Assembly: GCA_028289065.1 (NCBI GenBank)
Contig: JAQGHA010000009.1
Span: 62,001-126,000 of the forward strand
DNA from: Candidatus Saccharimonadota bacterium
Lineage (GTDB): Bacteria > Patescibacteriota > Saccharimonadia > Saccharimonadales > Saccharimonadaceae
Length of the DNA: 64,000 nucleotides
Direction of reading: 5' to 3'
Part shown: positions 1,734 to 58,370 of the stretch, in pieces
How the letters are laid out: each line of letters opens with the position of its first letter
Numbering within the stretch: position 1 is the stretch's first letter
The notes under the pieces: generated by a model
The model's input: the letters and a program-made list of their open reading frames with translations, nothing else
Told to the model about the DNA's origin: nothing
Database searches by the model: none
Made by a program: the position numbers and the translations under genes

Positions 1734-1752
1734 TATGATTAATTATACCTTA

Positions 1753-3183
1753 TTACTGGTAATTATCGGTCCAGTCATTCTGCATCAACACAATGTCGCC
1801 GGCGGCAACGAACTGGTCGAGGTTCGTATAAAATTGCAGCGGGTTGTCGATTTCAATCAGCTTGCCGTTAAACTTCTCACGAGTTAACCCAGCCTTTATA
1901 TACTCAGTGACTGAATTTTGCATCAGCACAACCACATCAACCGACCCGGCAATCTGCCTACCGATAGTTTCATGGATTTCTCGTACTTTAGACCCTTGCT
2001 CCACCAGACCTGGTGTTACATAAATTCGACGTTTTGCGCCTGATGATTTCAAGAAGGATAACCCGGCCTCCACACCTTGGCTGTTTCCATTGTAGGTATC
2101 GTCAATCACCCAGGCGCCATGCATTGGGCGAGGCTCCATACGATGCTCGAATGGCCGTACTTTACGCAGTCCATTTTCGATGTTTTCAATACTTACCCCA
2201 AGCTCATATGCCATAGCGACAGCCGCAGCTGTTACTCCAACGGTATGTACCCCAACCAGGCCAGTCTTTGCATGAATCGTTTCACCTTGGCGGGTCATAG
2301 TAAATTCAGTACCATCAATAGCTGTTGATATATGACCAACCTGCCAGTCACCGGCTTTTTCATCACTAAACCACAGTGTGCTTTTATTCTTATATGATTT
2401 AACCAGTGGGCTTTGTTCATTTTTATATAGTTTTTCTGGCTTTACAAACTTTTCAATTTCAAAAATTGTCGCCACGGTATTTTCTAATGAACCAAAACTC
2501 GATAAATGAGCTTCATTAATACCGGTAATAATAGCGTATTCCGGATGCACCAGCCGAGACAGCTCACGAACATCGCCAACTTTTTCTTCACCTAACTCGA
2601 ACACTAATATATCTTCGTCGCCCTTAAGCTTCATGACAAACCGGCTAATACCGATAGGTGTATTCATATTTCCTGGCGTGGCGGCAACATTCATTCCCTC
2701 ACCTATAACAACTTTCAGTATTTCTTTGGCAGTTGTCTTACCAAAGCTACCAGCTACTGCTATTCGTCGTCCAGGGTGGTCATTTAGTTTTTTCTGGGCA
2801 TTAGCGATAATAACTTTTTCACGTGGTCTTTGGATTAACAATTCACCGATAAATAATGGTACTGCTAAGCCATAGGCGACAATAAAAGGTGCCGTAATGA
2901 GTAACAGCAAAGCAACTAGTAACCACATCTGCCCGTACACTGTTGATAAATAGACAGCCGCGATAATAACAAGAAGAATAACGAACACTATAGCTTGAAT
3001 AGCCAGTAATAATATCCGAACTTTTTTAGTCATATCTAGCGTGCGCCGCTTCATAACCCGTCGAAAGTCGGCTGTTCGATTGAACCAAGTTAGATACTGA
3101 CCTAAGTTGTATTCAGTACTTTGAAGCATGTACAAAAGTACTTTCGGATAGCTTGGAAGGAAACGAGTCCAAAAATATTTCAT
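1753..3183 (-). CDS. murF: Membrane-anchored MurF-type ligase (UDP-MurNAc-tripeptide--D-Ala-D-Ala ligase)
   Basis: Mur ligase adding D-Ala-D-Ala to the UDP-MurNAc peptide. The P-loop GSFGKTT is at residues 145-151, followed by ATPGNMNTPIG, a central ATPase domain with ELGEE and TGINEAHLSSFGS, and a C-terminal domain with WVIDDTYNGN. The 476 residues are usual, but the usual N-terminal UDP-sugar binding domain is replaced by about 120 residues carrying two hydrophobic segments (about 56-82 and 86-112). This suggests a membrane-tethered ligase, and the substrate-side domain is not recognisable. Its ATG overlaps the stop of the hydrolase gene by 4 nt, so it is translationally coupled; ddl follows 19 nt downstream. 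Confidence 0.88.
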   Translation of the reverse strand: MKYFWTRFLPSYPKVLLYMLQSTEYNLGQYLTWFNRTADFRRVMKRRTLDMTKKVRILLLAIQAIVFVILLVIIAAVYLSTVYGQMWLLVALLLLITAPFIVAYGLAVPLFIGELLIQRPREKVIIANAQKKLNDHPGRRIAVAGSFGKTTAKEILKVVIGEGMNVAATPGNMNTPIGISRFVMKLKGDEDILVFELGEEKVGDVRELSRLVHPEYAIITGINEAHLSSFGSLENTVATIFEIEKFVKPEKLYKNEQSPLVKSYKNKSTLWFSDEKAGDWQVGHISTAIDGTEFTMTRQGETIHAKTGLVGVHTVGVTAAAVAMAYELGVSIENIENGLRKVRPFEHRMEPRPMHGAWVIDDTYNGNSQGVEAGLSFLKSSGAKRRIYVTPGLVEQGSKVREIHETIGRQIAGSVDVVVLMQNSVTEYIKAGLTREKFNGKLIEIDNPLQFYTNLDQFVAAGDIVLMQNDWTDNYQ

Positions 3184-3941
3184 CCTAGAAACCTATCTAT
3201 CGCTTTGGTTGCACCGTCAAAATCGTCATCGTATACAAAGTGCCCAGCATTAGGTAATACAATTAATTCTGACTTTGATATCTTGGCATGCATAAGCTTG
3301 CCATCTGCTAATGGAGTTTCCGTGTCTCGTTCGCCCCATAGCAATAAGGTTGGCGCAGCAATGGCCGGTAAGTACTGCGTTAGGTCTTCGCGGATGGTAT
3401 TTAAAAATACCTGTTTCATAGCACCAGACTGTTGGTAATCACTACTTCCTACGGCTGCATACAGGCGCTCTCGCAAGCTTTTGCTCATTTTGTTGAGCCC
3501 TGGCAGTGCAGTCACCGCCTTACCTGTTTTAGCGACTGTACGATAGGCGATCATTTTAGCGGTGGTTTTCGGCTTAATACCAGCTGAACCCATGAGAATA
3601 ACTTTTTCAGGTTGTAGCAAGCCGGTCGCGACTCCTTTAATTATTACCCGCCCACCAAATGAATGGCCGAAAATCGCCGTGAGTTTAGATATATTCATTT
3701 TACCTACAAAAGCGGCGGTGAGTTCCGCATACTCCCCTACTGACCAGTTGCCATTCGGCACCGGGCTGGCACCAAAACCGGGGAAATCAATTCGAAATAC
3801 TTCGTGGCCGGTTACAACCAGGTGTTGAGATAGCTGGTCGAAAGACGCAAGTGATGTACCCCAACCGTGAAGAAGCAAGACAGCGTTTCCCTGACCCTCT
3901 TTTTTGTATTCAATTAGCTGTCCGTTTACGAGGACTTTCAT
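3180..3941 (-). CDS. Alpha/beta-fold hydrolase
   Basis: A 253-residue serine hydrolase. VLLLHGWGTS supplies the oxyanion loop (about residues 22-31), GHSFGG holds the nucleophilic Ser (about residue 94), LLLWGERDTETP holds the acidic residue and NAGHFVYDD the catalytic His. The family covers esterases, haloperoxidases and thioesterases, so the substrate cannot be named. It sits first in a coupled unit with murF (4-nt ATGA overlap) and ddl, so a role linked to envelope building is possible but inferred. A TATAAT at 3950-3955 lies 8 nt before the ATG and there is no ribosome site, predicting a leaderless mRNA. Confidence 0.88.
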   Translation of the reverse strand: MKVLVNGQLIEYKKEGQGNAVLLLHGWGTSLASFDQLSQHLVVTGHEVFRIDFPGFGASPVPNGNWSVGEYAELTAAFVGKMNISKLTAIFGHSFGGRVIIKGVATGLLQPEKVILMGSAGIKPKTTAKMIAYRTVAKTGKAVTALPGLNKMSKSLRERLYAAVGSSDYQQSGAMKQVFLNTIREDLTQYLPAIAAPTLLLWGERDTETPLADGKLMHAKISKSELIVLPNAGHFVYDDDFDGATKAIDRFLG

Positions 3942-3993
3942 ATGTCTTTATTATACTGCATTGTTATAGAGATATATAGAAATGGTTAAAGTG

Positions 3994-4389
3994 TTATTTT
4001 GCGGGAATTGATAACCAGTTTTTGATAATACTCGTTATTGGAATGAGGTTGACGGTGATATCTTCGATAGTCCTAAAGGTGAGCATTCCCCTAATATCGG
4101 AGCTCCATTCTATTAACTCGCTATCGTCTTGCATTACTGGAGCACCTTTTTTGTCTTCTTTGCGGGTAGCGCCCATATGGAGTATGAGCTTTACGACGCC
4201 CTGCTTATTCATAAGGTTAAAGGTGATTCTATCTTCGCCATTTAAAACGTAGCTTGGGGCATTCCATTTGATATGCTCTTCTAGCTGAGGAGCGGTTTTT
4301 AAGATAAGGTCACGGAGAGTATTTACTTGGAGGCGTTTATCCTCATTTAAATCGGCGAGGAATTCTTCGAGGGTTTTGTACTTTTGCAT
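3994..4389 (-). CDS. DUF1801 family protein
   Basis: A 131-residue soluble protein matching the DUF1801/YdhG-like fold: an N-terminal helix pair with LRDLILKTAPQLEEHIKWNAPSY, then strands with a VVKLILHMG segment and a C-terminal helix ending in a conserved IKNWL-like stretch. The family is small, cytoplasmic and of uncertain role, and is found widely in bacteria. A second, divergent DUF1801 gene lies at 25119-25484. A TATTAT box lies about 6 nt before the ATG, so leaderless transcription is likely here too. It is 52 nt upstream of the hydrolase, which has its own -10 box. Confidence 0.8.
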   Translation of the reverse strand: MQKYKTLEEFLADLNEDKRLQVNTLRDLILKTAPQLEEHIKWNAPSYVLNGEDRITFNLMNKQGVVKLILHMGATRKEDKKGAPVMQDDSELIEWSSDIRGMLTFRTIEDITVNLIPITSIIKNWLSIPAK

Positions 4390-4436
4390 ATAGATATAAT
4401 AGCAGAATTATAATGTGCTGATATTATTCAATATAG

Positions 4437-4465
4437 TTGCATAATTAGTTGTATTATACTATAAT
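4437..4465 (+). promoter_or_regulatory. Canonical promoter of the orphan membrane gene
   Basis: TTGCAT (4437-4442) and TATAAT (4460-4465) are spaced by exactly 17 nt. The transcript would begin near 4472 with a leader of about 70 nt containing the dyad GGCCactGGCC, a segment with the bases ACGTTA and GTCAGATC, and a strong TTGGAGGC ribosome site before 4544. Confidence 0.75.
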
Positions 4466-4543
4466 ATGCTTAGTTATGGCCACTGGCCGTGACAGCACGT
4501 TACGGTCAGATCACGATTCTTTTCCTACTTTGGAGGCTTTCGT

Positions 4544-5359
4544 ATGTTTGAAATATTTGATGGATGGGCGCTTGTACTTTGGACTCTCGGCGGCATAATG
4601 ATTGTCTGTGGAATTATCTGCTTTTTCATAGCAGATGGTGGTATGTTACTGGTAATCTTCGGTATTGTGGCGATCATTTGGGGCGGTGGAATCCAGACGG
4701 GTCACGACGCCAATAAGTTCGAAGTAAAGTCGGCCGGTGAGGCGTGTGTTTTAGAAAGCGCACGTGAAGTCCCAGCAGGAGCTACACTTGGCACAGCGAA
4801 AGACGACCGCGTTGGTCCAATCTATCCATGCTACTTCCTACTGGATCAAGGTATCCAACCGGGTATCGACGGAGTTTTCGATCCGGTCCCGATGAAGATG
4901 TTTGGAGAAGTCAACGAGTCGCTTTTCGCAGATCAGAATTTCACCGCGGAGGGAAACCTAGGCGGAGTGGCTCTACTTGGAACTGGCGTCATCAGCGGCG
5001 ACTATAAGGCAAGCGAAACAACCGAGCGCACACAGGTAGTCGCTTTCATGGCAGAAACCAGTGGCGGCTACGCAAGTTTCGTGGTTGAAACGGGTTCAGT
5101 CCGCTACAAGGAATGTGCCGATTGCATACCCAACGTGCGTATCTGGACTTCCAAGGAACCGATGTTTACCAAAACCCTTGGTGAAGAAAAAGATGACTCA
5201 ATTTGGCTGACAACAGAAGACGCACCCCCCGTTGCCTCGCTCACACGAGACAATGCACCCGTTTCGCCAGGTCGGACAGTTCAAGCGCTTGCCACGAGAA
5301 TCGTGATCGAGCTTCCCTCGTCACTTATGCCTGGGGCAAACCCTCTTCCTATCAACTGA
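4544..5359 (+). CDS. Orphan membrane-anchored hypothetical protein
   Basis: A 271-residue protein. Residues about 8-52 hold two hydrophobic helices joined by a short acidic turn; the remainder is an extracytoplasmic or cytoplasmic beta-rich domain with four cysteines (including an ECADC pair near residue 193) and a Pro/Ser-rich tail. I recognise no family. Its base composition and codons (GTC, CTT, GGC, CGC) are more GC-rich than the flanking genes. It is a single-gene unit: canonical N17 promoter, TTGGAGGC ribosome site 10 nt before ATG, and a strong hairpin terminator 20 nt after the stop. This pattern is shared with other foreign-looking genes in the window, so recent acquisition is plausible. 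Confidence 0.75.
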   Translation: MFEIFDGWALVLWTLGGIMIVCGIICFFIADGGMLLVIFGIVAIIWGGGIQTGHDANKFEVKSAGEACVLESAREVPAGATLGTAKDDRVGPIYPCYFLLDQGIQPGIDGVFDPVPMKMFGEVNESLFADQNFTAEGNLGGVALLGTGVISGDYKASETTERTQVVAFMAETSGGYASFVVETGSVRYKECADCIPNVRIWTSKEPMFTKTLGEEKDDSIWLTTEDAPPVASLTRDNAPVSPGRTVQALATRIVIELPSSLMPGANPLPIN

Positions 5360-5376
5360 CCAGTGCTTATCCACTT

Positions 5377-5435
5377 CCGCAGCGGCTTTAGATGCTTTTA
5401 TCTAGAGCTGCTGCGGGGTGGGTTTTTATTTTTGT
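5377..5435 (+). terminator. Intrinsic terminator of the 4544 gene
   Basis: CCGCAGCGGCTTTAGAT pairs with ATCTAGAGCTGCTGCGG (17 bp counting two G-U pairs) around a 6-nt loop and is followed by GGGTTTTTATTTTT. Confidence 0.85.
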
Positions 5436-5464
5436 AAAGTTTGGTTGTTGAAGTTGTAATTAAA

Positions 5465-6037
5465 TTAACTTCCGACTTGCCTTAGCCAATCTCTAATATA
5501 CATCCCGACTCTTTCTGAATCAGTTTCTTTAAGTACGCCCCCATGCATAATTACATTGCGAGATTTTTCCAATGTACTAATAATTTCCTTAGCCCAATCT
5601 ATGTTTGTCACGTGCGGCTCAAATAGTGTCCAGTTGCCCGCGATTATCGATATTAAATCGCCAAATTCAGTATAATCGATAAGGTTTTCTCCTCTCGCTG
5701 AGTGCCACCTGATGGTCTGTTCAATATCACGCCTATTCTCAGCTCTTGTTCTAACATCCTTTTTTACTGAAGTCTCCCACCAATCCGTACCCTTGTCCTC
5801 CTGAAGCATTTTTGTAACAAAGCTTCTAACTGTATTTTCAAAAGCATGAATAGCAGTATATACAGTCGAGCTCTCTGTTGCGGAGGTGACTAGGTTCTCA
5901 TCCATGCTATTTAGCCCAAGCTGGTCAAATTTTTTACTAAAGTCTGCGTCACTAAGTGCGCGCTTATTAGTTCTTCCAGCTTTATCTAAAGCTTCTTCAG
6001 TCACTAGAGCTCTAAAGACATAAGAGTACAAATCCAT
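5465..6037 (-). CDS. Swt1-type HEPN domain protein (putative RNase partner of DUF5343)
   Basis: A 190-residue all-helical protein with the HEPN signature R-x4-H at Arg160-Asn161...His165 (SRNVIMHGG), as in the Swt1 HEPN family, whose Arg and His form a metal-independent RNase site in active members. A second helix around residues 55-80 (SSTVYTAIHAFENTVRSF) is the usual first HEPN helix. Its ATG overlaps the stop of the DUF5343 gene (TAATG), so the two are translationally coupled and surely work together. HEPN proteins are common in toxin-antitoxin and abortive-infection systems; that role is inferred. No other nuclease or methylase lies nearby. Confidence 0.78.
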   Translation of the reverse strand: MDLYSYVFRALVTEEALDKAGRTNKRALSDADFSKKFDQLGLNSMDENLVTSATESSTVYTAIHAFENTVRSFVTKMLQEDKGTDWWETSVKKDVRTRAENRRDIEQTIRWHSARGENLIDYTEFGDLISIIAGNWTLFEPHVTNIDWAKEIISTLEKSRNVIMHGGVLKETDSERVGMYIRDWLRQVGS

Positions 6038-6678
6038 TAGAGTAAATGATCCTTGAGGCTCTTGAACAATGCATCATATACTGCAGGGTCACGAGATTCA
6101 GGAAGATGAATCTGAATATTATAATGTAAGCCTAAAGAATCTAGCCCGGTTAAGGAACCCTTCAAATCGGACTGCTTTTCTTCTTTAATAGTCGTAGTTT
6201 CAGTTTCAGGTATTTCTTCTATTTTCTTAGCTGTCGCAGGTATGGTTTTTTTAGGACTCCAAACAGCATACTCGGCAAGAGCTTTGAACGTATTAGCCAT
6301 CATGCCGTAAACCCTATCAGAATACTTTCCTTGAGTTAGTGTCTTTAGCTTACTCTTAACTTCATCTGCAGGCAGAGATTGAGCCGTTACGTTTACATTA
6401 AATAAATCCTCGTAAGCATCCATGACAGCCTGTGCCATTATTTCTTTTGACCTAGTTTGATCCATGAACTCGTAATATCGGGAGGTGGGTACTCCACTTT
6501 CTTCTAGAAAACCCAGACTTTTTAAAAGTCCTATGTATAGCCTATCGTTCGTACTTTTGAACTCTAAACTTTCGAGAAATTTCTGAGTAAAGGACTCCGG
6601 AGCGCGCGCGCTAATTAAACTATTAAAGAACGGTTCTACGTTTTTTGTCGTGATCAAATAAGATGTTGTGAGTGCCAT
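6037..6678 (-). CDS. DUF5343 domain protein
   Basis: A 213-residue protein matching DUF5343 over its first about 135 residues: FTQKFLESLEFKSTNDR, IGLLKSLGFLEESGVPTSRY and a MANTFKAL helix. The pattern suggests a winged-helix-like DNA- or RNA-binding fold. Residues about 136-175 are a Lys/Glu/Thr-rich linker and the C-terminal about 35 residues form a second small domain (GLHYNIQIHLPES). The start at 6678 is fixed by AAGGAG 6 nt upstream; a longer upstream frame has no such site. It is the first gene of a two-gene unit with the HEPN gene. I infer it to be the binding or antitoxin-like half of the pair; this is not proven by sequence. Confidence 0.8.
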   Translation of the reverse strand: MALTTSYLITTKNVEPFFNSLISARAPESFTQKFLESLEFKSTNDRLYIGLLKSLGFLEESGVPTSRYYEFMDQTRSKEIMAQAVMDAYEDLFNVNVTAQSLPADEVKSKLKTLTQGKYSDRVYGMMANTFKALAEYAVWSPKKTIPATAKKIEEIPETETTTIKEEKQSDLKGSLTGLDSLGLHYNIQIHLPESRDPAVYDALFKSLKDHLL

Positions 6679-6733
6679 TTCTATCTCCTTATAAATATTA
6701 GTATATAACATTCGTTTAGTTAAATGATACAAG

Positions 6734-6777
6734 GTTAATCTGTTAATACTCGAGTTAATCGGCAAATAGCAATTAAC
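6734..6777. promoter_or_regulatory. Cluster of GTTAAT/ATTAAC boxes upstream of the DUF5343-HEPN pair
   Basis: GTTAAT occurs at 6734-6739, 6742-6747 and 6754-6759, and an inverted ATTAAC lies near 6772, all 55-95 nt upstream of the DUF5343 start. Repeated half-sites like this are typical for autoregulation by a DNA-binding partner. A TATACT box sits between them and the start. Regulatory function is inferred. Confidence 0.35.
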
Positions 6778-6850
6778 CCACAATTAGTCCAATCGTTTAA
6801 TGGGTATAAACGTCATCTTAATCGAGGGAGCTTTTCTATTTGTCATCATA

Positions 6851-6874
6851 GTGCAGGTACAGGGACTCTAACCC
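6851..6874 (-). repeat. Truncated copy of the tRNA-Gly 3' end
   Basis: The 24 nt at 6851-6874 match the 3' end of tRNA-Gly (6997-7020) with about one or two mismatches; the core ggtacagggactctaaccc is identical. There is no CCA and no 5' half. Duplication of a tRNA 3' end in direct orientation is the usual scar of site-specific integration, but only 146 bp separate the copies. The rest of 6679-6995 holds a CCCTGGAC/GTCCAGGG hairpin (6900-6934) around an ATT-repeat loop, and no gene. Confidence 0.6.
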
Positions 6875-6955
6875 CAGCTCGCTGTGGCTCGCCGGGCTGC
6901 CCTGGACTATTATTATTATTGATTCGGTCCAGGGTTAGAAACACTATCATTCATA

Positions 6956-6994
6956 CCAAATAAAATTGCCTAGCTTACACTAGGCAATTTTATT
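6956..6994 (-). terminator. Terminator of tRNA-Gly
   Basis: A perfect inverted repeat (CCAAATAAAATTGCCTAG and its complement, 6-nt loop) begins at the encoded CCA end of tRNA-Gly and ends in an AT-rich tail. Confidence 0.8.
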
Positions 6995-7070
6995 TGGTGC
7001 GGGTACAGGGACTCTAACCCTGGACCTCATCCTTGGCAAGGATGCGCTCTAACAGCTGAGCTACACCCGC
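6995..7070 (-). tRNA. tRNA-Gly(GCC), CCA encoded
   Basis: Complete cloverleaf read on the minus strand: acceptor GCGGGTG/TACCCGC, D-arm GCTCAGCTGTTAGAGC, anticodon loop TTGCCAA with anticodon GCC, T-arm with GGGTTAGAGTCCC, discriminator A and an encoded CCA. The T-loop reads TTAGAGT rather than the usual TTCGA form, which is unusual. It has a canonical promoter at 7090-7118. Confidence 0.93.
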
Positions 7071-7089
7071 ATGGGTGGTTGCTTTATGA

Positions 7090-7118
7090 ATTATACAGAG
7101 GTAAGGCGGTTTTTTCAA
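7090..7118 (-). promoter_or_regulatory. Promoter of tRNA-Gly
   Basis: TTGAAA (7113-7118) and TATAAT (7090-7095) on the minus strand with a 17-nt spacer, about 20 nt upstream of the mature tRNA 5' end. Confidence 0.8.
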
Positions 7119-7132
7119 GTCGTTGGGCGTAA

Positions 7133-7169
7133 AAAGAAATACTCCCATCAAATGATGAGAGTATTTCTT
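7133..7169 (-). terminator. Terminator of tRNA-Phe
   Basis: AAAGAAATACTC and its complement form a 12-bp stem directly after the encoded CCA of tRNA-Phe, followed by TTTTT on the minus strand. Confidence 0.8.
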
Positions 7170-7244
7170 TGGTGGCTCCTCCCAGGCTCGAACTGGGGAC
7201 ACAGGGCTCTTCAAGCCCCTGCTCTACCACTGAGCTAAAGAGCC
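7170..7244 (-). tRNA. tRNA-Phe(GAA), CCA encoded
   Basis: Minus-strand cloverleaf: acceptor GGCTCTT/AGGAGCC, D-arm GCTCAGTGGTAGAGC, anticodon stem GGGGC/GCCCT with loop TTGAAGA (anticodon GAA), T-arm CCCAGTTCGAGCCTGGG, discriminator A plus CCA. Promoter TTGTCA-N17-TAAAAT lies at 7267-7295. Confidence 0.95.
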
Positions 7245-7266
7245 GCACTTGGTTTGAACTTTATCT

Positions 7267-7295
7267 ATTTTACTAGAGGTGGAGCGTTCTGACAA
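7267..7295 (-). promoter_or_regulatory. Promoter of tRNA-Phe
   Basis: TTGTCA (7290-7295) and TAAAAT (7267-7272) on the minus strand, 17-nt spacer. Confidence 0.7.
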
Positions 7296-7308
7296 GGTTA
7301 GCGATAGA

Positions 7309-7959: not shown

Positions 7960-7965
7960 ACTTTC

Positions 7966-8907: not shown

Positions 8908-8922
8908 ACCACTACCTTAGCA

Positions 8923-9540: not shown

Positions 9541-9594
9541 TTTTATACCTTGGTACTAATTTAATGTTAGTTTTTGATAATGCTTCTGTCCTCA

Positions 9595-9623
9595 ATTAAA
9601 CCATATCGATAATGTTTATACAA
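9595..9623 (-). promoter_or_regulatory. Promoter of the surface-protein unit
   Basis: TTGTAT (9618-9623) and TTTAAT (9595-9600) on the minus strand, 17-nt spacer, followed by a leader of about 50 nt with an AAGG ribosome site. Confidence 0.55.
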
Positions 9624-9674
9624 CTATGTAATTTCTACCTATGATTTCCTATATTACTAGGTTGGCATAAGTGG

Positions 9675-9680
9675 TATAAT
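9675..9680 (+). promoter_or_regulatory. -10 box of the tail-fibre-like gene
   Basis: A perfect TATAAT at 9675-9680 with no clear -35 box; the leader of about 35 nt carries GGAGAGG (9702-9708), 13 nt before the ATG at 9722. Confidence 0.55.
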
Positions 9681-10468: not shown

Positions 10469-10471
10469 GCT

Positions 10472-11830: not shown

Positions 11831-11867
11831 ATTAAATTCTGGTTGTTTATAGAGGTATAATAGATAC

Positions 11868-15446: not shown

Positions 15447-15506
15447 TACCACCCAGTATAGACGGAGTTGCTAAAAGTTAGCAAGGTAATAAGCGCAGAA
15501 AATAGT

Positions 15507-22507: not shown

Positions 22508-22546
22508 GCATCTCAGTATAGCCTAACCAATGGTAACCGGGGAATG

Positions 22547-24109: not shown

Positions 24110-24177
24110 CTCTTATATAGTATACCTAAAATAGTTATTCACTGCTTTAGCAAGCAGTAGCGCTACACGAAAACTGT

Positions 24178-25065: not shown

Positions 25066-25118
25066 CAACACCAACTATAGCACTTTTAACCCTTTAAATC
25101 CAGGTGTATACTAGCACC

Positions 25119-28158: not shown

Positions 28159-28261
28159 GTGTCTCCCCTTTAAACTGTTGTTGTGACTGCCATCAATTAT
28201 AGCATATTTATAGTATTTTGACGAATAGAGTTCAGAGGCGCGGCGTGCTATAATTTGAGTA

Positions 28262-28936
28262 ATGATACCGGGTGTTGATTTAATCGAATTTATTAAGTGG
28301 GCAAGCATCTTAGGTGTGGCCGCAATTGTATTCGCTGAATCAGGTTTGTTAATTGGTTTTTTCTTACCTGGTGACAGTTTACTCTTCGCCACCGGCTTCT
28401 TGATTCACTCCGGCTTCCTGGATATTAGTATCCACCTGGCCGTATTGATTGTGTTTGTCGCTGCAGTTCTAGGCGACAGTGTCGGGTATACGTTCGGGCG
28501 AAAATTAGGGCCTCGCTTGTTTAAAAAACAAGACGCTCGCTTATTCAAACAAGAATATATTCAGCGAGCTCAAGCTTTTTATGATAAGCATGGCGGCAAA
28601 ACAATTATTATTGCCCGTTTCATTCCAATTGTCCGTACCTTTGCACCAATTGTCGCCGGGGCTGGCGAAATGAACTACCGTCGCTTCTTAGCTTTTAACC
28701 TTGTCGGCGCTTTACTATGGGCTGCTGGTATTACGTATGCTGGGTATCTACTTGGTGGTGTGTTCGAATCTATGGGTATTGAGATTGATACAATCCTACT
28801 GCCAATTATCGCCATTATCATTTTCATATCAGTCCTCCCACCTGCAATCCACTTACTCAAAGATAAGAAAAACCGTGACGCTCTATGGTACGGTGTGAAA
28901 AAACAATTCAAAACACTGTTTAGCCGTAGTAAATAA
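28262..28936 (+). CDS. DedA family membrane protein
   Basis: A 224-residue integral membrane protein of the DedA/SNARE-associated family, members of which move lipid carriers such as undecaprenyl phosphate. Family motifs: FAESGLLIGFFLPGDSLL, GDSVGYTFGRKLG, KHGGKTIIIARFIPIVRTFAPIVAG with the conserved Arg pair, and FNLVGALLWA. Four to five membrane segments. TATAAT at 28249-28254 is 7 nt from the ATG, preceded by TG (extended -10), with no ribosome site: a clear leaderless candidate. It diverges from the L25 gene. Confidence 0.92.
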   Translation: MIPGVDLIEFIKWASILGVAAIVFAESGLLIGFFLPGDSLLFATGFLIHSGFLDISIHLAVLIVFVAAVLGDSVGYTFGRKLGPRLFKKQDARLFKQEYIQRAQAFYDKHGGKTIIIARFIPIVRTFAPIVAGAGEMNYRRFLAFNLVGALLWAAGITYAGYLLGGVFESMGIEIDTILLPIIAIIIFISVLPPAIHLLKDKKNRDALWYGVKKQFKTLFSRSK

Positions 28937-33575: not shown

Positions 33576-33636
33576 AACCGTCTAATTATACACTTTTTTC
33601 AGACTTTTTTCTAGTATGCCATCATTACGCACATGC

Positions 33637-35365: not shown

Positions 35366-35393
35366 AGCTTCTATTATAGCTTGTGAATGTTAT

Positions 35394-37871: not shown

Positions 37872-37888
37872 ATACTCTAATTATAACA

Positions 37889-42737: not shown

Positions 42738-44000
42738 CTAGATTTTCAGAAGCCGATTAAATTTATCCTTTATCGTATCTCCCTCACCACTCCCTATAAG
42801 TGTATCATATCCCACCCTTAGCAAGCCCATGGCGGTAATGAAAGTATGGTCGGTAACATCGCCGGTAGCATCGGCAACACCAATCACTTCAGAGGGGTTA
42901 ATATGGTGAACGGTCGGTTTTTTAGTAAACGGTAATTCTTTATGCCACGTAGGTTCATTCAAAATATCAACAATTTTTTCGAGACTTGAACCACCACCAC
43001 AAAGTAGAATTCTATTAGGTAAATGATCGACTGAATCAAATTCACTTAAGGCAAGTTCAACACCGGCAATCCAAACTTCAAGCGTTTTATCGATAGCATC
43101 ATTTACTTCTTTTTTAACTGAAGCTTTAATTTGTTCATGATCAATATTTACCTTAAGTTTTTCGGCATCTTTATAAGGAAGGTTCATATCGCTGGCAATT
43201 GTTTGCGTCACGCTACGACCACCGATTCCGAACATCTTAGTTCCCTCTACACCACCGTCATTTACAACCGCAATGTCGGTAGTACCACCACCCATATCAA
43301 GTAATATGGCGGTGAAGTTGCTATTAGCATCGTTTCCAAGCACACTCCGGCTGACGGCAAATGGTTCAGCAGCAACCGCTAACAATTCTAACGACAGCTC
43401 ATCAGCTACTCGTTCTAGCGCTCCAATGTGTACCATCGGTGCAAAGGCGGTATAAATTTGTACCGCTACGTCACGGCCTTGGAAGCCAATCGGGTTACTG
43501 ACTTTATAGCCATCAATGTGGATACCAACAAGGGCACTGTTTACAAGTTTTACTTCGACTTCATTATTACCAGTCTCTAAGGCAATTTGTTTTTGAGCTT
43601 TAATTTGAGCTCGTTCCTGTACCTTTTCGATGATGAATTCCATCTCAGAATCATCTAGCGGGCGGTCGGGTTGTGGGCGGCGGTAACGGATAGTATCGGT
43701 TACACCCTTTACGAGTTCACCAGCAATACCAATGACGACACGTTTCGCCTGTAGGCCAGCTTGCTCTTCGGCGTCAGCTAAAGCTTCTTCACAATTACGT
43801 ACAACACCAGCAATATCAGCAATAGCCCCAGAATGCATATCGCTTACTTCTTGACGTGAACGGCCAACGCCCACAATCTTAAGTTCTTCACCCTCAATTT
43901 TAGCAATCAGCGCCTTTACAAATTCGGTTCCTATATCCAATGCTACGATGTAATCGTCATTGGATGGCTTGCGCTTCGTTCTAAATTTTTCTAATACCAT
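42738..44000 (-). CDS. ftsA: FtsA-like actin-fold ATPase
   Basis: 420 residues of the FtsA/PilM actin-like family. Phosphate loops VALDIGTEFVKALI (about 19-32) and ILLDMGGGTTDIAVV (about 231-245), the SHS2-type 1C domain (about 85-170) and the adenosine loop LCGGGSSLEKI are visible. FtsA anchors FtsZ to the membrane; PilM does the same for pili. The usual membrane helix is replaced by LIGSGEGDTIKDKFNRLLKI at the C-terminus, which could be an amphipathic anchor. FtsZ is not next to it. First gene of the ftsA-baseplate-ruvX-mltG chain; TATAAT 11 nt before the ATG. Confidence 0.85.
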   Translation of the reverse strand: MVLEKFRTKRKPSNDDYIVALDIGTEFVKALIAKIEGEELKIVGVGRSRQEVSDMHSGAIADIAGVVRNCEEALADAEEQAGLQAKRVVIGIAGELVKGVTDTIRYRRPQPDRPLDDSEMEFIIEKVQERAQIKAQKQIALETGNNEVEVKLVNSALVGIHIDGYKVSNPIGFQGRDVAVQIYTAFAPMVHIGALERVADELSLELLAVAAEPFAVSRSVLGNDANSNFTAILLDMGGGTTDIAVVNDGGVEGTKMFGIGGRSVTQTIASDMNLPYKDAEKLKVNIDHEQIKASVKKEVNDAIDKTLEVWIAGVELALSEFDSVDHLPNRILLCGGGSSLEKIVDILNEPTWHKELPFTKKPTVHHINPSEVIGVADATGDVTDHTFITAMGLLRVGYDTLIGSGEGDTIKDKFNRLLKI

Positions 44001-44103
44001 AGTTGCTGTCCATTATAACATTAGTGGTAAGCAAAATGCTCGCGCTATTGATAAAAATTGGCTTCCATTTGTATTTATAAGTAAATCATGATATAAAATT
44101 ACG

Positions 44104-46913: not shown

Positions 46914-46941
46914 AAGGGGTTATTATATATGAGCAGATAAC

Positions 46942-49912: not shown

Positions 49913-49936
49913 CTTCTTATTATAGCTTATGGATGA

Positions 49937-50566: not shown

Positions 50567-50616
50567 ATAAAAGTCTTCCGTTAAGAATTGGAATTTTTTT
50601 GTGGTGGTGTTTTGGT

Positions 50617-52871: not shown

Positions 52872-52914
52872 TTAGAATCTATTGTAACAGATTGATATCG
52901 AAACTGTCAGCCGC

Positions 52915-54120
52915 CTAAATGCCGTCAGCCCTTGACCAGTCGGTGGCTAAGTCAAATCCGTCTGGGTGGTTAGCGGCAAAGCCACCAGTATCGTATACTT
53001 TGGCGGGTCCAACACTGGTTTCGGTAATTGAACACTTAGGGTAACGGCTATAATTGGCTGCAATAATCACGTAACCATCTCGATCAACTTTTACGCCATC
53101 AACCCGTACTTCATAAAAACCACCTTGGCCACATGATTGCATTACCCGGCTCATGTTCAGGTCGTAATAAGTTTCACGGTGCACGACACCTTTGCTATCG
53201 GTCCACATTTGCGCGCCTTTAGAATGCGTTAATGCACCCGGCCTATTTTTTATACCAACGACTTCAATTTGTTTTACTGGTTCTTTAGTAACAATACTCG
53301 CAATTTTGGTTCGCGAAATCTCAACACCGTCTTTAACTTCTATTTCATATGTGTTGGCACGTACACCTGGTACCCCTACAGTACTTACTACCTTGTAACC
53401 CACTTCCCTATCGGCATCAAAAATCCTTTCACTAGTAAATGGCGTAGCTTCATCAAGCGTAACTGTTTGCTTTCCTTCTTGCCAAACTCGAACTTCCATA
53501 CCACTGACAATAGGCGTTGTTTCTGGTACGGATACTCGACCATTCACACCAAGCACAATACCTTTTTCTTTCAACATTTCGCCAACGGTATCACCCTGGG
53601 TTCGAATAAGCGTTTTTTTGCTGTATAAATCAAGGGTAAGTGGCACCGCTCGGTCAATACTCATCTGCAAGCCAGCGCCGTCGCCGATAAAATCTCCCGA
53701 AGGAAGCAAACGAGTCGCATCTTCAGGGTAAATAGTTATACCAGCATCCTTGGCGATTCGTTCCGGCACTTGGTATGGCGTCATAATCTTTACCCGGGTT
53801 GAACCATCAATCACAAATACTGGCCGGGCTCGGTAAATATTCACCTGGTAGTCAGGTGCAATCAGCTCATCGTCACGCGACGGCTCAACACTATCGCGAA
53901 TGTCCAGCTCGATGCCATTATCTTTCAATGCTTCACCGATCGTCTTTTTATCAGTTAAAAAGGAGCTTTCTGTATTTCGGTCATACACAGTAATGAGAGT
54001 TTTAGTGTCTGTTTGAGCATGTACAAAGGATGTGAGATTGAGGCACGCCAAAATAGCAACAATACTCAAACTTGCGAATAAGCTTCTTACCGTAAAATGC
54101 TTGTGTGCCCAAAGTTTCAT
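52915..54120 (-). CDS. YabE-like exported protein with DUF348, G5 and 3D domains
   Basis: 401 residues. Signal helix at about 12-35, DUF348 repeats at about 40-80 (FLTDKKTIGEALKDNGIELDIRD), 95-140 and 155-200, a G5 domain at about 205-285 (RTKIASIVTKEPVKQIEVVG) and a C-terminal 3D domain with its conserved Asp residues (VDRDGYVIIAANYSRY, AKVYDTGGFA, GFDLATDW). Such proteins are secreted wall-lytic enzymes. It shares DYQVNIYRARPV with the Rpf-like protein at 54945, so these are tandem paralogues on either side of ksgA. It has a leader with a TATAAT upstream. Confidence 0.88.
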   Translation of the reverse strand: MKLWAHKHFTVRSLFASLSIVAILACLNLTSFVHAQTDTKTLITVYDRNTESSFLTDKKTIGEALKDNGIELDIRDSVEPSRDDELIAPDYQVNIYRARPVFVIDGSTRVKIMTPYQVPERIAKDAGITIYPEDATRLLPSGDFIGDGAGLQMSIDRAVPLTLDLYSKKTLIRTQGDTVGEMLKEKGIVLGVNGRVSVPETTPIVSGMEVRVWQEGKQTVTLDEATPFTSERIFDADREVGYKVVSTVGVPGVRANTYEIEVKDGVEISRTKIASIVTKEPVKQIEVVGIKNRPGALTHSKGAQMWTDSKGVVHRETYYDLNMSRVMQSCGQGGFYEVRVDGVKVDRDGYVIIAANYSRYPKCSITETSVGPAKVYDTGGFAANHPDGFDLATDWSRADGI

Positions 54121-54168
54121 ACTAGAAGGTAAACCTCTGTCATTGACTTAATTATATCATTGAACGGA

Positions 54169-54951
54169 TTACTCGGTTCGAGCAACAGTTGCCGTTAATC
54201 GTAACCAATTTTCGAGTGAAAGTTGTTCAGCTCGATCATCTGGGTCAATGCCGGCCTCAATTAATAGTTTTTCAGCTTCTGGCTTAGTGAGGTGTAGTCC
54301 GCTCGATATACTGCTGCGAAGTTTTTTACGTTTAGCCGAAAAACCGGCTTTAACGACTCGGAAAAATAGTTTCTCGTCTTCCGTGGCAACTAGCGCTTTA
54401 GGGCGAGTTTTCAAAACGACAACTTGGCTATCCACCTTCGGTGGTGGAGTGAAGAATTTTGCTGGCACTACATCACTCAGTTCAACCTGGGCGTATATTT
54501 GAGCACTCACAGCAAGAATGCTCATATTGCCTGGTTTTGCAGCTACCCTGACGGCAACTTCTTTTTGAATAAGCAATACAATAACTCGCGGCTTATTCAC
54601 AGCGGTGGTTAACAACTGGATAATTTTAGAAGTAATGTAGTACGGCACATTAGCCACAACAACGTACTGCTCAGGAAGCCGGGTCAGATCGAAGGATAAA
54701 ATATCTTGATTGACAACTTCAAGCGATGTTCCCGGAAATTGACCTGGTAATTTTGCCGCTAATTCAGCATCAAGTTCTACGGCTACTACTTTTTTCGAGC
54801 GTCGTAATAGTTCACTCGTTAATGTACCGAGGCCTGGACCAATTTCCAGCACGGTGTCATCGGCGCTAATATTGGCATCATCGGCAATTTTAGCAAGTAT
54901 ATCCCTGTCTTTTAGCCAGTGTTGGCCGAGGGATTTCTTAGGGCCTACCAC
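54169..54951 (-). CDS. rsmA: 16S rRNA dimethyladenosine transferase KsgA
   Basis: Dimethylates two adjacent adenosines near the 3' end of 16S rRNA. 260 residues with KKSLGQHWLKD, the SAM loop LEIGPGLGTLTSELL, VAVELDAELA, and the catalytic NVPYYITSKII (NxPY). GTG start at 54951 overlaps the Rpf-like gene by 7 nt. The Rpf/ksgA link is the same as in Actinobacteria. Confidence 0.95.
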   Translation of the reverse strand: MVGPKKSLGQHWLKDRDILAKIADDANISADDTVLEIGPGLGTLTSELLRRSKKVVAVELDAELAAKLPGQFPGTSLEVVNQDILSFDLTRLPEQYVVVANVPYYITSKIIQLLTTAVNKPRVIVLLIQKEVAVRVAAKPGNMSILAVSAQIYAQVELSDVVPAKFFTPPPKVDSQVVVLKTRPKALVATEDEKLFFRVVKAGFSAKRKKLRSSISSGLHLTKPEAEKLLIEAGIDPDDRAEQLSLENWLRLTATVARTE

Positions 54952-56189
54952 CAGCCCTTTGCGACCTTGAATTTATAAGCCGCCTCCCAAGTTCCATAAC
55001 GACCAATTGCATAGCTATGGCACCACTTCATTTGAGTTACCACGTTTGTTCGCCAATCGCCACCAGCCGTTGCCATTTTAATTCCAGGGGTAGCTTGGCA
55101 CAGGCCATAACCCACACCGCTTGAACTTTCCGCACCAGCAAATTTTTCATAGTAACTTGAAGCACAGCCAGTTGTACCTTGCCAACGAATTGCACACCAT
55201 AAAGCGTTCTCGTTGTTAATTATATACGCAGCGTACTCTTGGTCACCGCTAGCAACCCCAGCTGCAGTCATAATGGCAGCTTTATCAGCCGAGAAAGTTA
55301 CCGAAAGGTTTACTTTATCACCTACTACTTCGACTTGGTTTTTTGGTTGTTGCGTGACAATGGCAGCAATTTCAGTTCGTAAAATTTCTTGGCCATCGCG
55401 GACTTCAATTTCATAGGTAACCGTTCGTTTTCCCGCGACACCTGGTGTTTGAATTTCTTTGTATCCATACGCCCGGTCAGCATCCTTAATCTGTTCTGTG
55501 CCGAAGGCAACATCTTCGTCAACGTTGACGGTTTGTTTACCTTCTCGCCAGATACGGACTTCCAGCCCGCTTGTTATAGTGGTAGACCCTGCTAATGAAG
55601 CTCGGTCATTAGCGGCCAAAGTAATACCTTTTTCTGCCAACATCTCTTCAACCGTATTTCCTTGGGTGCGAATGTAAGTTTTCTTACCGTATAAATTAAG
55701 AACCAGAGGTGTTGCCCGGTCGATTTTCAGTTGTAAGCCAGCGCCATCGCCAACAATATCAGCCGAGCGGCTCAGGCTACTGGTGTCTTCAGGGAACAGT
55801 GCAATACCGACATCGGCAATGATTTGCTCAGGTGTTTGATAAGGGGTCACTACTTTTAAACGGGTAGCACCATCTATAACCGTTACTGGGCGCGCCCGGT
55901 AGATATTTACCTGATAATCGCTAGCAACCAGTTTTTCGTCAATTGCGGGCTCTACGGCATCGTGCGAATCAACATCAATGCCCACTTCTTTAAAAGCATC
56001 CTTTAAGGTTTCGGCTTGAGTCAGGAAGACCGTTTCTTTACCTCGGTCGTGGACAGATATAAGTCGACCATTTTCACTTGAAGCGGCAGCTGGCCGAGCG
56101 ATCAAGCTAGCCGCGAATATGCCAAAAAGCCCCAAAACGGCGAGGCTCACAGAAATAAACGTGGTGGATTTGCGCAAACGCAGTCTCAT
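54945..56189 (-). CDS. Rpf-like exported muralytic protein (DUF348-G5-lysozyme-like)
   Basis: 414 residues. Signal helix about 12-36, three DUF348 repeats (about 40-200), G5 domain (about 205-285, RTEIAAIVTQQPKNQVEVVG) and a C-terminal lysozyme-like domain (about 305-414) with a probable catalytic Glu in IINNENALWCAIRW and the RPF/APF-type GYGLCQATPGIKMATAGGDW. This is the architecture of RpfB of Actinobacteria, enzymes that cut peptidoglycan and wake dormant cells. It is the first gene of the Rpf-ksgA pair, with a TATACT box and a leader of about 45 nt. Acting on its own wall or on a host wall is not decided by sequence. Confidence 0.88.
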   Translation of the reverse strand: MRLRLRKSTTFISVSLAVLGLFGIFAASLIARPAAASSENGRLISVHDRGKETVFLTQAETLKDAFKEVGIDVDSHDAVEPAIDEKLVASDYQVNIYRARPVTVIDGATRLKVVTPYQTPEQIIADVGIALFPEDTSSLSRSADIVGDGAGLQLKIDRATPLVLNLYGKKTYIRTQGNTVEEMLAEKGITLAANDRASLAGSTTITSGLEVRIWREGKQTVNVDEDVAFGTEQIKDADRAYGYKEIQTPGVAGKRTVTYEIEVRDGQEILRTEIAAIVTQQPKNQVEVVGDKVNLSVTFSADKAAIMTAAGVASGDQEYAAYIINNENALWCAIRWQGTTGCASSYYEKFAGAESSSGVGYGLCQATPGIKMATAGGDWRTNVVTQMKWCHSYAIGRYGTWEAAYKFKVAKGWW

Positions 56190-56234
56190 AAAAAAATAAA
56201 CATTCCCTAACAGTGTGTATTGTTTAGTATAGCA

Positions 56235-58346
56235 CTAAAGCTTTTGTAAATGGGCGTATTCAGCGTTTAACTTTTTAGTTTGACCACTGATAAAGGCAAT
56301 CGTTACAGCCATACCATCAACGTCAATAATTTCACCATCACCAAAGGCTGCCGAACGGACTTTATCACCAATATCGAAGCCGATATCGTCGCTATAAAAA
56401 GGCTCATCTGGTTGATACCCCATCACATTTGGCTCGGGATTAGTCATCGCCACTTGGTCACCCATATCGGTAATAAATCGTGACATCGGATTATAGGTTC
56501 GCTGGCCAAATTGCAGGCGGCTATACGCGTAACTGAGGTGCAACTCTTCACGGGCCCGTGTCATACCAACGTAACAAAGCCGGCGTTCTTCCTCGAGCTC
56601 AGCCGGGCTAGCCTCGAAAACTCGTGAGTGTGGCAAAATACCTTCTTCAAGCCCGACCATAAAGACCACTGGGAACTCTAAGCCTTTAGCAGCATGCAGC
56701 GTCATTAACGTTACTGTATCACCATCTTTTTGGCTATCGACACTCGACATTAAGGCCACTTCTTCAAGGAAATCTGAAATACTAGTAAAGTTTTGGGCAT
56801 CAGATAACAATGACCCGAGGTTCTCTTCGCGGTCTTCAGCCTGTGGTGTACCGTCAAGAATGTAATCTCGGTAACCAACTAACTTAATAACCGATTCAAT
56901 TAATTCTGCTGGGCTAGCTTCTTCTACCCGTTCGCGAAGGCTGAGGAGTTTTTCGCCAAGCCGAGCTAAAGCTACTTTCGCCTTACCGGTTACAATATTT
57001 TCAGCCTCAACCCGTACTAAAGCATCAATGATATCAACCGGTTGTTCCGATTGCCACAGTAAAAAACGTTCTAAACTAGTAGCCCCTACGCCACGAGTAG
57101 GAACGTTAGCGATGCGGCTGAAGCTCATACGATCATTCGGCTGATAAATAAGTTTTAAATAAGCAATAATATCTTTAATTTCTTTACGGTCATAGAAGCG
57201 TACACCACCAACAATTTGGTAGGGCACTCGCATTTGCAAAAAGGCACGCTCTAAAGTATAACTTTGGGCATTGGTTCGGTATAAAACTGCGAAATTGTCA
57301 TATTTGCGGGCACCAATTGTTACTTGGGCTGAAATGCGGTCAGCGACCTGCCGAGCTTCTTCGGCTTCATCATACACGCCATGTACTTGTACTGGCGCTC
57401 CACTGCCTTCAGCCGTCCATAACTCTTTATCGGTGCGTTGGGTATTTTTGGTAATTACTTGGTGGGCAGCTTCCAAAATATTACCAGTACTACGGTAATT
57501 TTGTTCAAGTTTAACTACCGTGGCACCGGCGAAGTCACGTTCAAAGTTTAAGATATTGGTAAAATCAGCCCCGCGCCAACTGTAAATTGACTGCCAGTCA
57601 TCACCAACGACACAAATATTCTTTTCGTCGTTAACGAGTAGCTTTACTAGCTGGTATTGAGCAGCGTTAGTGTCTTGGTACTCGTCGATCATAATATGCT
57701 TGAAATGGTTTCGCCACTTAGCGCGAATTTCTTTGTTGTTTTGCAACAAATTAACCGCTTCTAAAAGTAAGTCGTCGAAATCTAAGGCTTTGGCTTCTTT
57801 ACGGCGTTTTTCATATAGCGCATACACCTTGGCGACATTTTTTTGGAATGGGTAGTGAGCATCGGCTTCGTATTCAGTTGGGTTTAACATCGCATTTTTA
57901 GCTGATGAAATAGCACCACTGACTGCTGATGGCTTCATATCTTTATCGGTAATCGAAAGCTGTTTCATAGCTTGCTTTACTAACCCTTGGCGGTCGTCTT
58001 CATCGTAAATGACAAAGTTACGGGGAACATCAATAAATTGGCCATCCATCCGAAGTAAACGTACACAAATACCGTGAAAGGTTCCCATCCAGGGCATAAA
58101 CGAGCGGTCATTGGGCTGGTTTAATAAATGCGATAAGCGCTCACGCATTTCTTTGGCGGCTTTATTGGTAAAAGTCACTGCCAAAATTTGGCTTGGCCAG
58201 ATGCCTTTTTCAGCAATCAGCAATGCAATACGGTGGGTCAGCGTCTTGGTTTTACCACTCCCCGCCCCAGCTAAAATCAAAAGCGGCCCCGACGTTGTCA
58301 GAGCAGCTTGGCGCTGCGCATCATTTAATTCCCCAAGAATGTCCAT
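56235..58346 (-). CDS. uvrD: UvrD/PcrA-type DNA helicase
   Basis: 703-residue SF1A helicase for repair and fork rescue. Motif I AGAGSGKTKTLTHR, Ia VTFTNKAAKEM, II IDEYQDTN, III GDDWQSIYSWRGA, IV EQNYRSTGNI, V LMTLHAAKGLEFPVVFMVG and VI CYVGMTRAREEL are all intact. The C-terminal tail (FSDDIGFDIGDKVRSAAFGDGEI-type Tudor-like end) binds RNA polymerase in PcrA. TATACT at 58354-58359, 7 nt from the ATG, no ribosome site. Confidence 0.96.
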   Translation of the reverse strand: MDILGELNDAQRQAALTTSGPLLILAGAGSGKTKTLTHRIALLIAEKGIWPSQILAVTFTNKAAKEMRERLSHLLNQPNDRSFMPWMGTFHGICVRLLRMDGQFIDVPRNFVIYDEDDRQGLVKQAMKQLSITDKDMKPSAVSGAISSAKNAMLNPTEYEADAHYPFQKNVAKVYALYEKRRKEAKALDFDDLLLEAVNLLQNNKEIRAKWRNHFKHIMIDEYQDTNAAQYQLVKLLVNDEKNICVVGDDWQSIYSWRGADFTNILNFERDFAGATVVKLEQNYRSTGNILEAAHQVITKNTQRTDKELWTAEGSGAPVQVHGVYDEAEEARQVADRISAQVTIGARKYDNFAVLYRTNAQSYTLERAFLQMRVPYQIVGGVRFYDRKEIKDIIAYLKLIYQPNDRMSFSRIANVPTRGVGATSLERFLLWQSEQPVDIIDALVRVEAENIVTGKAKVALARLGEKLLSLRERVEEASPAELIESVIKLVGYRDYILDGTPQAEDREENLGSLLSDAQNFTSISDFLEEVALMSSVDSQKDGDTVTLMTLHAAKGLEFPVVFMVGLEEGILPHSRVFEASPAELEEERRLCYVGMTRAREELHLSYAYSRLQFGQRTYNPMSRFITDMGDQVAMTNPEPNVMGYQPDEPFYSDDIGFDIGDKVRSAAFGDGEIIDVDGMAVTIAFISGQTKKLNAEYAHLQKL

Positions 58347-58370
58347 TGTATCTAGTATACAACGGAATCG

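Follow-up and report, generated by a model that had tools for sequence, protein, structure and literature searches.

The window analysed here is a stretch of 64,000 bases at 44% GC, located at positions 62001-126000 of contig C1 in the source genome (G000; 933,113 bases in 17 contigs). Its genes include ddl, rarA, uvrC, uvrA, obg, alaS, metG and pcrA/uvrD, and a few nucleotides (nt) upstream of each of their start codons lies a -10-like box of the TATAAT type. The box pattern is real, strong and general, and it very likely marks genes whose mRNAs are leaderless. Among UvrA relatives labelled to phylum level, the closest belong to Candidatus Saccharibacteria (identity 81-87%), in agreement with the organism guessed in a first-pass annotation of the window, a Saccharibacterium.

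That annotation had named at least 17 boxed genes, with their spacings. All 17 boxes and spacings were recovered (Table 1); 16 boxes have T, A and T at hexamer positions 1, 2 and 6 (T1, A2, T6) and match TATAAT at five or six of six positions, and the 44104 gene, for which no family match was found, has the weaker TATAAA. As to the Shine-Dalgarno (SD) sequence that these genes were said to lack, 16 of the 17 pair with the anti-SD more weakly than -6 kcal/mol (mean over all 17, -2.0); the exception is rarA, where a GAGG precedes the box. The list itself was incomplete, as it omitted further cases in the window, namely the gene at 4389 (6 nt) and the ftsA-like gene at 44000 (11 nt). Both DUF1801 genes of the window, at 4389 and 25119, have the box 6 nt from the ATG. 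Contrasting modes meet in the divergent pair between 28158 and 28262, where dedA has the box 7 nt from its ATG and an SD pairing of only -1.7 kcal/mol, whereas the gene for ribosomal protein L25 has an SD leader. The mechanical start of the L25 open reading frame (ORF), at 28392, runs into dedA and is probably too far upstream.

Table 1. Boxes in the window, the start codons they precede, and the SD sequence of the L25 gene
Feature	Sequence	Position	Strand	Distance to start codon	Gene (start)	Remark
-10 box	TATAAT	1742..1747	(-)	8 nt, ATG	ddl (1733)	
-10 box	TATAAT	3950..3955	(-)	8 nt, ATG	alpha/beta hydrolase (3941)	
-10-like box	TATTAT	4396..4401	(-)	6 nt, ATG	DUF1801 gene (4389)	absent from first-pass list
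-10 box	TATAAT	11856..11861	(+)	6 nt, ATG	rarA (11868)	SD-like GAGG upstream of box
-10 box	TATACT	15455..15460	(-)	8 nt, ATG	trehalase (15446)	longest-ORF GTG 15452 not used
-10 box	TATACT	22515..22520	(-)	7 nt, ATG	pepP-like aminopeptidase (22507)	
-10 box	TATACT	24119..24124	(-)	9 nt, ATG	uvrC (24109)	
Extended -10 box	TGCTATAGT	25074..25079	(-)	8 nt, ATG	trhO (25065)	
-10 box	TATACT	25107..25112	(+)	6 nt, ATG	DUF1801 gene (25119)	
Extended -10 box	TGCTATAAT	28249..28254	(+)	7 nt, ATG	dedA/VTT-domain gene (28262)	
Extended -10 box	TGCTATAAT	28196..28201	(-)	37 nt, ATG	L25/TL5 ribosomal protein gene (28158)	
SD sequence	AAAGGGGAG	28163..28171	(-)		L25 gene	within leader; pairing -8.2
-10 box	TATAAT	33585..33590	(-)	9 nt, ATG	uvrA (33575)	
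-10 box	TATAAT	35373..35378	(-)	7 nt, ATG	sbcB/exonuclease I (35365)	
Extended -10 box	TGTTATAAT	37880..37885	(-)	8 nt, ATG	obg (37871)	
Extended -10 box	TGTTATAAT	44012..44017	(-)	11 nt, ATG	ftsA-like gene (44000)	absent from first-pass list
Weak -10-like box	TATAAA	44092..44097	(+)	6 nt, ATG	44104 gene	after TGA
-10 box	TATAAT	46922..46927	(-)	8 nt, ATG	alaS (46913)	
-10 box	TATAAT	49919..49924	(-)	6 nt, GTG	cysteine desulfurase (49912)	
Extended -10 box	TGTTACAAT	52881..52886	(-)	9 nt, ATG	metG (52871)	
-10 box	TATACT	58354..58359	(-)	7 nt, ATG	pcrA/uvrD (58346)	

Excess and spacing of the box

We extended the count to the window plus 20 more stretches of the source genome, 426,540 bp in all or 46% of the genome. 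Genes were called mechanically, as ORFs of at least 60 codons with a codon score, so that the choice of start was independent of the upstream sequence, and two start rules were compared, the longest-ORF start and the coding-score start. A strict box (T1, A2 and T6, with five or six of six matches to TATAAT) was counted at 6-9 nt from the start codon, and the counts leave out genes with a start closer than 66-110 nt to the end of a stretch. SD sequences were scored by pairing energy in kcal/mol and taken as present at -6 or better. Energies were preferred to SD words because the word AGGTA overlaps the extended -10. Twenty of the 367 genes had no called upstream neighbour and lie outside all gene-spacing classes used below.

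In the window alone, 13 of 51 genes had a strict box with longest-ORF starts (mean 1.4 and maximum 5 in 200 shuffles) and 14 of 51 with coding-score starts (mean 1.5, maximum 7, again in 200). Over the 426.5 kb the counts rose to 66/366 (100 shuffles: mean 10.9, maximum 20) and 75/367 (100 shuffles: mean about 11.6-11.8, maximum 19) under the two rules. The spacing was sharp, with exactly 6 nt in 29 of the 366 genes with longest-ORF starts, compared with 2.7 in shuffles, and in 34 of the 75 box genes with coding-score starts. The genome-wide distance test proposed with the first-pass annotation, for which lack of a 6-9 nt peak was to refute its claim, thus came out on this 46% with the peak in place.

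No such peak preceded 1,972 in-frame ATGs inside genes. The same pipeline gave no box excess in 200 kb of E. coli K-12 (1/163 genes, 2.1 expected), in 49 mostly alphaproteobacterial loci (4/670, 3.4 expected), in Bartonella (0/51, 1.2 expected) or in two Clostridia (2/27, 1.4 expected), whereas 13 loci of Saccharibacteria type had the box before 42 of 152 genes with 4.5 expected. These 13 loci all surround uvrA and are mutually non-independent, and three of them are labelled just 'bacterium' or 'uncultured bacterium'; 12 of the 80 UvrA loci, from unclear or other phyla, were omitted from the comparison.

An expectation-maximisation (EM) motif search with learned distance returned TATAAT (T1 0.95, A2 0.96, T6 0.91) with distance weights of 0.39 at 6 nt, 0.17 at 7 nt, 0.20 at 8 nt and 0.08 at 9 nt. 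Scored as a fixed model, it gave a posterior above 0.5 in 111 of 367 genes (50 shuffles: mean 21.5, maximum 38), again with 6 nt as the commonest spacing (43/111). Among the 102 genes whose upstream neighbour lies on the opposite strand, 45 passed (shuffle mean 8.1, maximum 14). The same threshold was reached at only 51 of 1,966 internal ATGs and at 19 of 233 non-start ATGs within 150 nt upstream of those 102 genes. Roughly one gene in four would use the box mode; among genes with an opposite-strand neighbour the share, after subtracting the shuffle rate, is about 36%.

Promoter character and the two classes of genes

Aligned on the hexamer, the strict-box genes have T (0.55) and G (0.61) upstream of it, with TG in 31 of 75, and a -35 match that is slightly raised at 17-18 nt, much as described beforehand (few -35 boxes, several TGn). 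We also scored the tRNA genes of the source genome and eight relatives of the same order. The box was found before 28 of 49 (100 shuffles: mean 7.1, maximum 13), with TG in 13 (0.3 in shuffles, maximum 2) and at 8-12 nt before the mature end in 13 (0.6 in shuffles, maximum 4). In SD genes, a box stands further upstream, at 18-50 nt, in 20 of 43 (9.2 expected). On this DNA evidence the box is a promoter and not a translation site, because of the TGn, its presence before tRNA genes and its upstream position in SD genes. Where the box is 6 nt from the start codon, the pyrimidine expected at -1 of the start site is found in 30 of 43 genes.

Box and SD sequence largely divide the genes between them. 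For the 102 genes with an opposite-strand neighbour, mean SD pairing was -1.30 kcal/mol in those with a box, close to the shuffle value of -1.32, and -3.93 in those without; an SD sequence accompanied 2 of the 45 boxes and was found in 18 of the 57 unboxed genes (Fisher P 0.0008). The pattern was similar for same-strand genes separated by at least 50 nt, with a box in 33 of 108 and an SD sequence in 3 of the 33 box genes compared with 25 of the 75 others (P 0.008); mean SD pairing of these box genes was -2.29, with -2.00 in shuffles. At gaps of 0-49 nt 26 of 96 genes were boxed, and among overlapping genes the box was absent (0/41) and SD sequences common (19/41). The start codons differ as well. 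Leaderless genes begin mainly with AUG, which is recognised at the 5' terminus, and the strict-box genes have 74 ATG, one GTG and no TTG starts, compared with 227, 47 and 18 among the others (Fisher P 2e-6).

To compare functions outside the window, we took 20 of the 27 box genes with a posterior above 0.9 and an opposite-strand neighbour, and 20 of the 28 SD genes with pairing of -8 or better and either an opposite-strand neighbour or a gap of at least 50 nt. Families were assigned by Pfam at 1e-15, with no family for 5 of the 20 box genes and 7 of the 20 SD genes. The box sample includes DNA polymerase I, primase, a UvrD-type helicase, a methylpurine glycosylase, a tyrosine recombinase, enzymes of EPSP-synthase/MurA fold and of MurB type, and a RelA/SpoT protein. 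The SD sample includes ribosomal protein S6, gyrase B, SHMT, ribonucleotide reductase, CTP synthase, a pyrophosphatase, RNase J, a class II tRNA synthetase and an S30AE-family protein. Box genes thus lean towards repair and replication and SD genes towards ribosome and metabolism, a contrast that is only loosely borne out by 20 against 20 genes and that gyrase B and the tRNA synthetase, both housekeeping genes with an SD sequence, cut against.

These results redraw the division of signals that had been proposed for the window. The association of the box with housekeeping and repair genes is loosely borne out for repair and replication, though housekeeping genes fall on both sides. Classic signals for operon-internal genes hold where genes overlap but not at small gaps, where the box is frequent. 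The tRNA genes, said to differ, carry the same box, and so do two listed genes that have no assigned function (25119, DUF1801, and 44104, no family), so orphan genes are not excluded from the box class as had been supposed.

Translation machinery, conservation and spread in the phylum

The 16S tail of the source genome (L001) reads GGATTACCTCCTTTCT, in which the anti-SD core CCUCC is kept. Tails were read by anchoring on the conserved 3' segment, three of 26 loci without the anchor being left out, and of the 23 tails obtained from the phylum's other genomes, 22 contain CCTCC. IF3 was found in 31 of 31 genomes, and a frame of 364 residues in the source genome matches the S1 domain four times. 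The inspection of anti-SD, IF3 and S1 that had been suggested therefore found all three present, which points to a mixed system in which the SD route has not been lost. Loss of that route was considered for the source genome and rejected, since the core CCUCC is present and SD sequences are used; its leaderless genes are an addition to SD initiation and no substitute for it. In other bacteria, leaderless mRNAs are described as being read by ribosomes carrying initiator tRNA and IF2 (PMC10783764), and those of the source genome may be read likewise.

The survey of 16S genes brought further observations. In one family of the phylum, f65, the anti-SD core is degenerate in three genera, with ATCTCC, ACTTCC or ATTTCC in place of ACCTCC (G103 L203, G129 L372, G140 L374). 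In G103, scored with the canonical anti-SD although its own core is degenerate, mean SD pairing was -2.33 (shuffles -2.46), and 0.19 of genes reached -6 (0.08 shuffled). G087 has two whole-model 16S matches (C8 L192, C10 L217) with different tails and scores, from contamination or a real second copy. A 16S match of 2,041 nt in G021 (G021:C1:372490-374530, L215) suggests an insert in the gene. The 16S search gave no match in G009, G105, G142, G065 and G131, which are of the same genus, family or order and listed as 99-100% complete; the gene is possibly unassembled there.

Orthologs of alaS, pcrA, obg and L25 were sought in 35 genomes representing 33 families of the order; 33-35 of these genomes had a match per gene, and the best 30 loci of each gene were followed, a set spanning about 28 families. 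Starts were set by alignment of the N-terminus with the upstream DNA ignored, and the upstream region was then scored; two of 30 loci each for pcrA and L25 had no usable N-terminus. The box mode was found for alaS at 23/30 loci, for pcrA at 20/28 and for obg at 18/30, but for L25 at only 1/28; SD sequences showed the reverse, at 1, 0, 3 and 21 loci, respectively. The ortholog N-termini of obg, alaS and pcrA coincide with the boxed start or fall at most eight codons from it.

The spread of the signal was surveyed in further genomes, ten of them from the class and 20 from other parts of the phylum, with 20-60 kb taken from each. A box at 6-9 nt preceded 6/34 genes in the same genus (0.7 expected), 12/67 in the family (2.0), 27/166 in the order (5.7), 5/59 in the class (1.1) and 72/620 in the rest of the phylum (16.6). 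Taken singly, at an uncorrected Poisson P of 0.05, nine of ten genomes of the class and ten of 20 elsewhere pass. With more sequence, the counts were 20/88 in G104 (2.0 expected), 15/83 in G031 (1.6) and 18/83 in G069 (5.6). In these three genomes the anti-SD is intact and mean SD pairing is no better than in shuffles; the share of genes at -6 was 0.15 in G104 (0.10 shuffled), 0.05 in G031 (0.04) and 0.04 in G069 (0.05). Other genomes differ: G060 is SD-led (box 4/85, 1.5 expected; SD share 0.39, shuffled 0.11), G062 has some boxes (6/74, 1.8 expected) and no SD signal, and no box excess was seen in G021 (2/87, 2.5 expected) or G103 (1/63, 0.3 expected). Judged by these counts, the signal is uneven across the phylum, which is mixed. 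Separately, same-strand genes behind gaps below 20 nt were still boxed in G104 (7/32, 0.3 expected) and G031 (8/36, 1.3 expected). Loci L088, L108, L348-L356 and others underlie the observation on G104, G031 and G069.

On a broader proposal our judgement is evenly balanced: that leaderless initiation is widespread and probably old in Patescibacteria, that individual genes retain it throughout the order (as judged from three box genes and one SD gene), and that in G104, G031 and G069 it has largely displaced the SD route despite an intact anti-SD, with promoters even inside tight gene runs.

Competing readings, known systems and meaning

Taken together, we consider it very probable that the boxes act as sigma-70-type promoters, often of the extended (TGn) -10 kind with a weak or absent -35, from which RNA polymerase would start at the start codon or within a few nt of it. 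The mRNAs would have no leader or one no longer than about 5 nt, a leader of 1-4 nt being indistinguishable in sequence from none, and translation would proceed by direct recognition of the 5'-terminal AUG. Two modes would then operate side by side, the leaderless one for roughly a quarter of genes and SD leaders for others, among them L25 and roughly every second overlapping gene; across the order, alaS, pcrA and obg mostly keep their mode. The leaderless reading of the first-pass annotation thus gains support from the peak, its absence in the controls and its conservation in orthologs. The box's position, sharpness and excess, its promoter nature, the avoidance of SD sequences outside small gaps, the restriction of start codons and the ortholog conservation are features of the DNA itself, unlike the RNA 5' ends and the ribosomal initiation step, which we infer.

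Several observations weigh against this interpretation. At gaps of 0-49 nt an SD sequence is also present in 6 of the 26 box genes, so that box and SD are not exclusive there (Fisher P 0.46), and leadered read-through transcripts are likely in that class. GTG or TTG starts occur in 5 of the 111 posterior-selected genes, and 89 of 210 leading genes have neither box nor SD sequence. The -1 pyrimidine is a weak criterion, not discriminating over all strict-box genes (0.61 vs 0.56). The EM lambda was 0.29 on the real sequences and 0.25-0.44 on shuffles, which converge on other motifs; as shuffles yield equal or larger values, lambda is no evidence by itself, and hence the fixed model was scored on shuffles. 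For uvrA, 30 loci across the phylum gave the box mode at just six and SD sequences at nine; the box is present at four of four loci of the window's own family, and outside it are two weak cases, with SD leaders common. The ortholog and uvrA counts suggest that initiation mode is a gene-level trait, often kept but able to switch.

Two further adverse observations bear on rival explanations. A purine lies 7 nt downstream of the box in 12 of 19 genes at spacing 7, 12 of 25 at spacing 8 and 7 of 9 at spacing 9, so leaders of 1-3 nt are possible there. Very short leaders of 1-5 nt, in place of strictly leaderless mRNAs, for most genes at spacing 7-11 nevertheless seem unlikely to us; the commonest spacing, 6, sets the A of the ATG at the usual start distance, and the functional class would be identical either way. 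An SD-preceded in-frame start is found at most 30 codons downstream in 11 of 78 box genes, slightly above the 4/43 and 7/89 of the other classes, and some starts may therefore be misassigned. That start codons are misassigned in general, with the true starts downstream behind ordinary SD leaders, is highly improbable given how similar the other classes are and how closely the ortholog N-termini of obg, alaS and pcrA align with the boxed starts.

The box might also be a translational element, A/T-rich and unstructured, that aids SD-less ribosome binding, as has been discussed for Bacteroidetes or for S1-dependent initiation, with transcription starting further upstream. It sits where A/T-rich non-SD signals sit, SD pairing is lacking, the genome has an S1-domain protein (four matches), and an A/T bias before starts is, according to Nakagawa 2017, not simply readable as a leaderless signal. 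A defined hexamer at fixed spacing with TGn upstream of it speaks against such an element, and the same box precedes untranslated tRNA genes and stands further upstream in SD genes; on the TGn, the tRNA promoters and the upstream box of SD genes we rejected this explanation as very unlikely. Chance, finally, has a negligible probability. TATAAT-like words are common at 44% GC, and about 3% of starts (11.6/367) would have one at 6-9 nt, but no peak appears in shuffles, at internal ATGs or in control genomes, the box is kept in orthologs, and the shuffle and control counts refute an origin in base composition.

Leaderless genes as such are a known kind. Zheng et al. (2011, PMC3160421) defined them in bacteria through a TA-like (Pribnow) signal that precedes the start by about 10 bp, and gave average shares of 19.2% in Actinobacteria and 39.4% in Deinococcus-Thermus. 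The genes described here resemble that class in the signal, its position and its mixture with SD-led genes in one genome, and the share to be compared is 75 (strict) to 111 (model) of 367, before subtracting the 12-21 expected. An upstream box, a promoter-like signal and AUG starts are all found; SD pairing stays near the shuffle level with an opposite-strand neighbour or a gap of at least 50 nt, although at gaps of 0-49 nt six of the 26 boxed genes have an SD sequence. The preference for single or first genes is visible in the 45/102 with an opposite-strand neighbour and the 0/41 overlapping, though 26/96 at 0-49 nt are boxed too. Different from those cases are the phylum, the GC content of 44%, the full TATAAT and the frequent TGn; TM7 is unmentioned in the passages considered of that paper. 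Another near counterpart is the class that GeneMarkS-2 assigns to bacteria with leaderless transcription (Lomsadze 2018, as cited in PMC9581028), and the StartLink paper (PMC9581028) cites 21.6% as the share of bacterial species that use such transcription. For mycobacterial leaderless transcripts (PMC4633059, PMC3898074), start sites were mapped genome-wide on RNA, whereas the present case is made on sequence.

Within the same radiation (the candidate phyla radiation, CPR), Absconditabacteria, Campbellbacteria, Wolfebacteria and Peregrinibacteria are reported as SD-scarce and without CCUCC (PMC10783764). They share unusual initiation with the source genome, which instead keeps CCUCC and uses SD sequences. 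The words 'Saccharimonas' and 'TM7' do not occur in the passages considered of PMC10783764, nor do TM7 or Saccharibacteria in those of Nakagawa 2017 and the 16S-tail survey (PMC5397173, PMC6107228). Among the matches listed, with subscription papers and preprints outside, none describes leaderless genes in Saccharibacteria or Patescibacteria by title or abstract; papers with both kinds of word, as far as their consulted text goes, cite GeneMarkS-2, mention YchF together with leaderless mRNA in general, or have a reference on leaderless secretion only. The lineage appears to be unreported for such genes.

Because the mode is conserved gene by gene, the question is open to 5'-end mapping. If the leaderless reading is true, a leaderless model would be required for Saccharibacteria when gene starts are called, operons mapped or expression constructs designed; SD-based start calling would lack its signal at about one gene in four. 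A compact rule, TGnTATAAT followed after 6 nt by ATG, would be at hand for expression tools in cultured epibionts, and a phylum with reduced genomes would be added to what is known of the coexistence of leaderless and SD initiation and of the replacement of one by the other.

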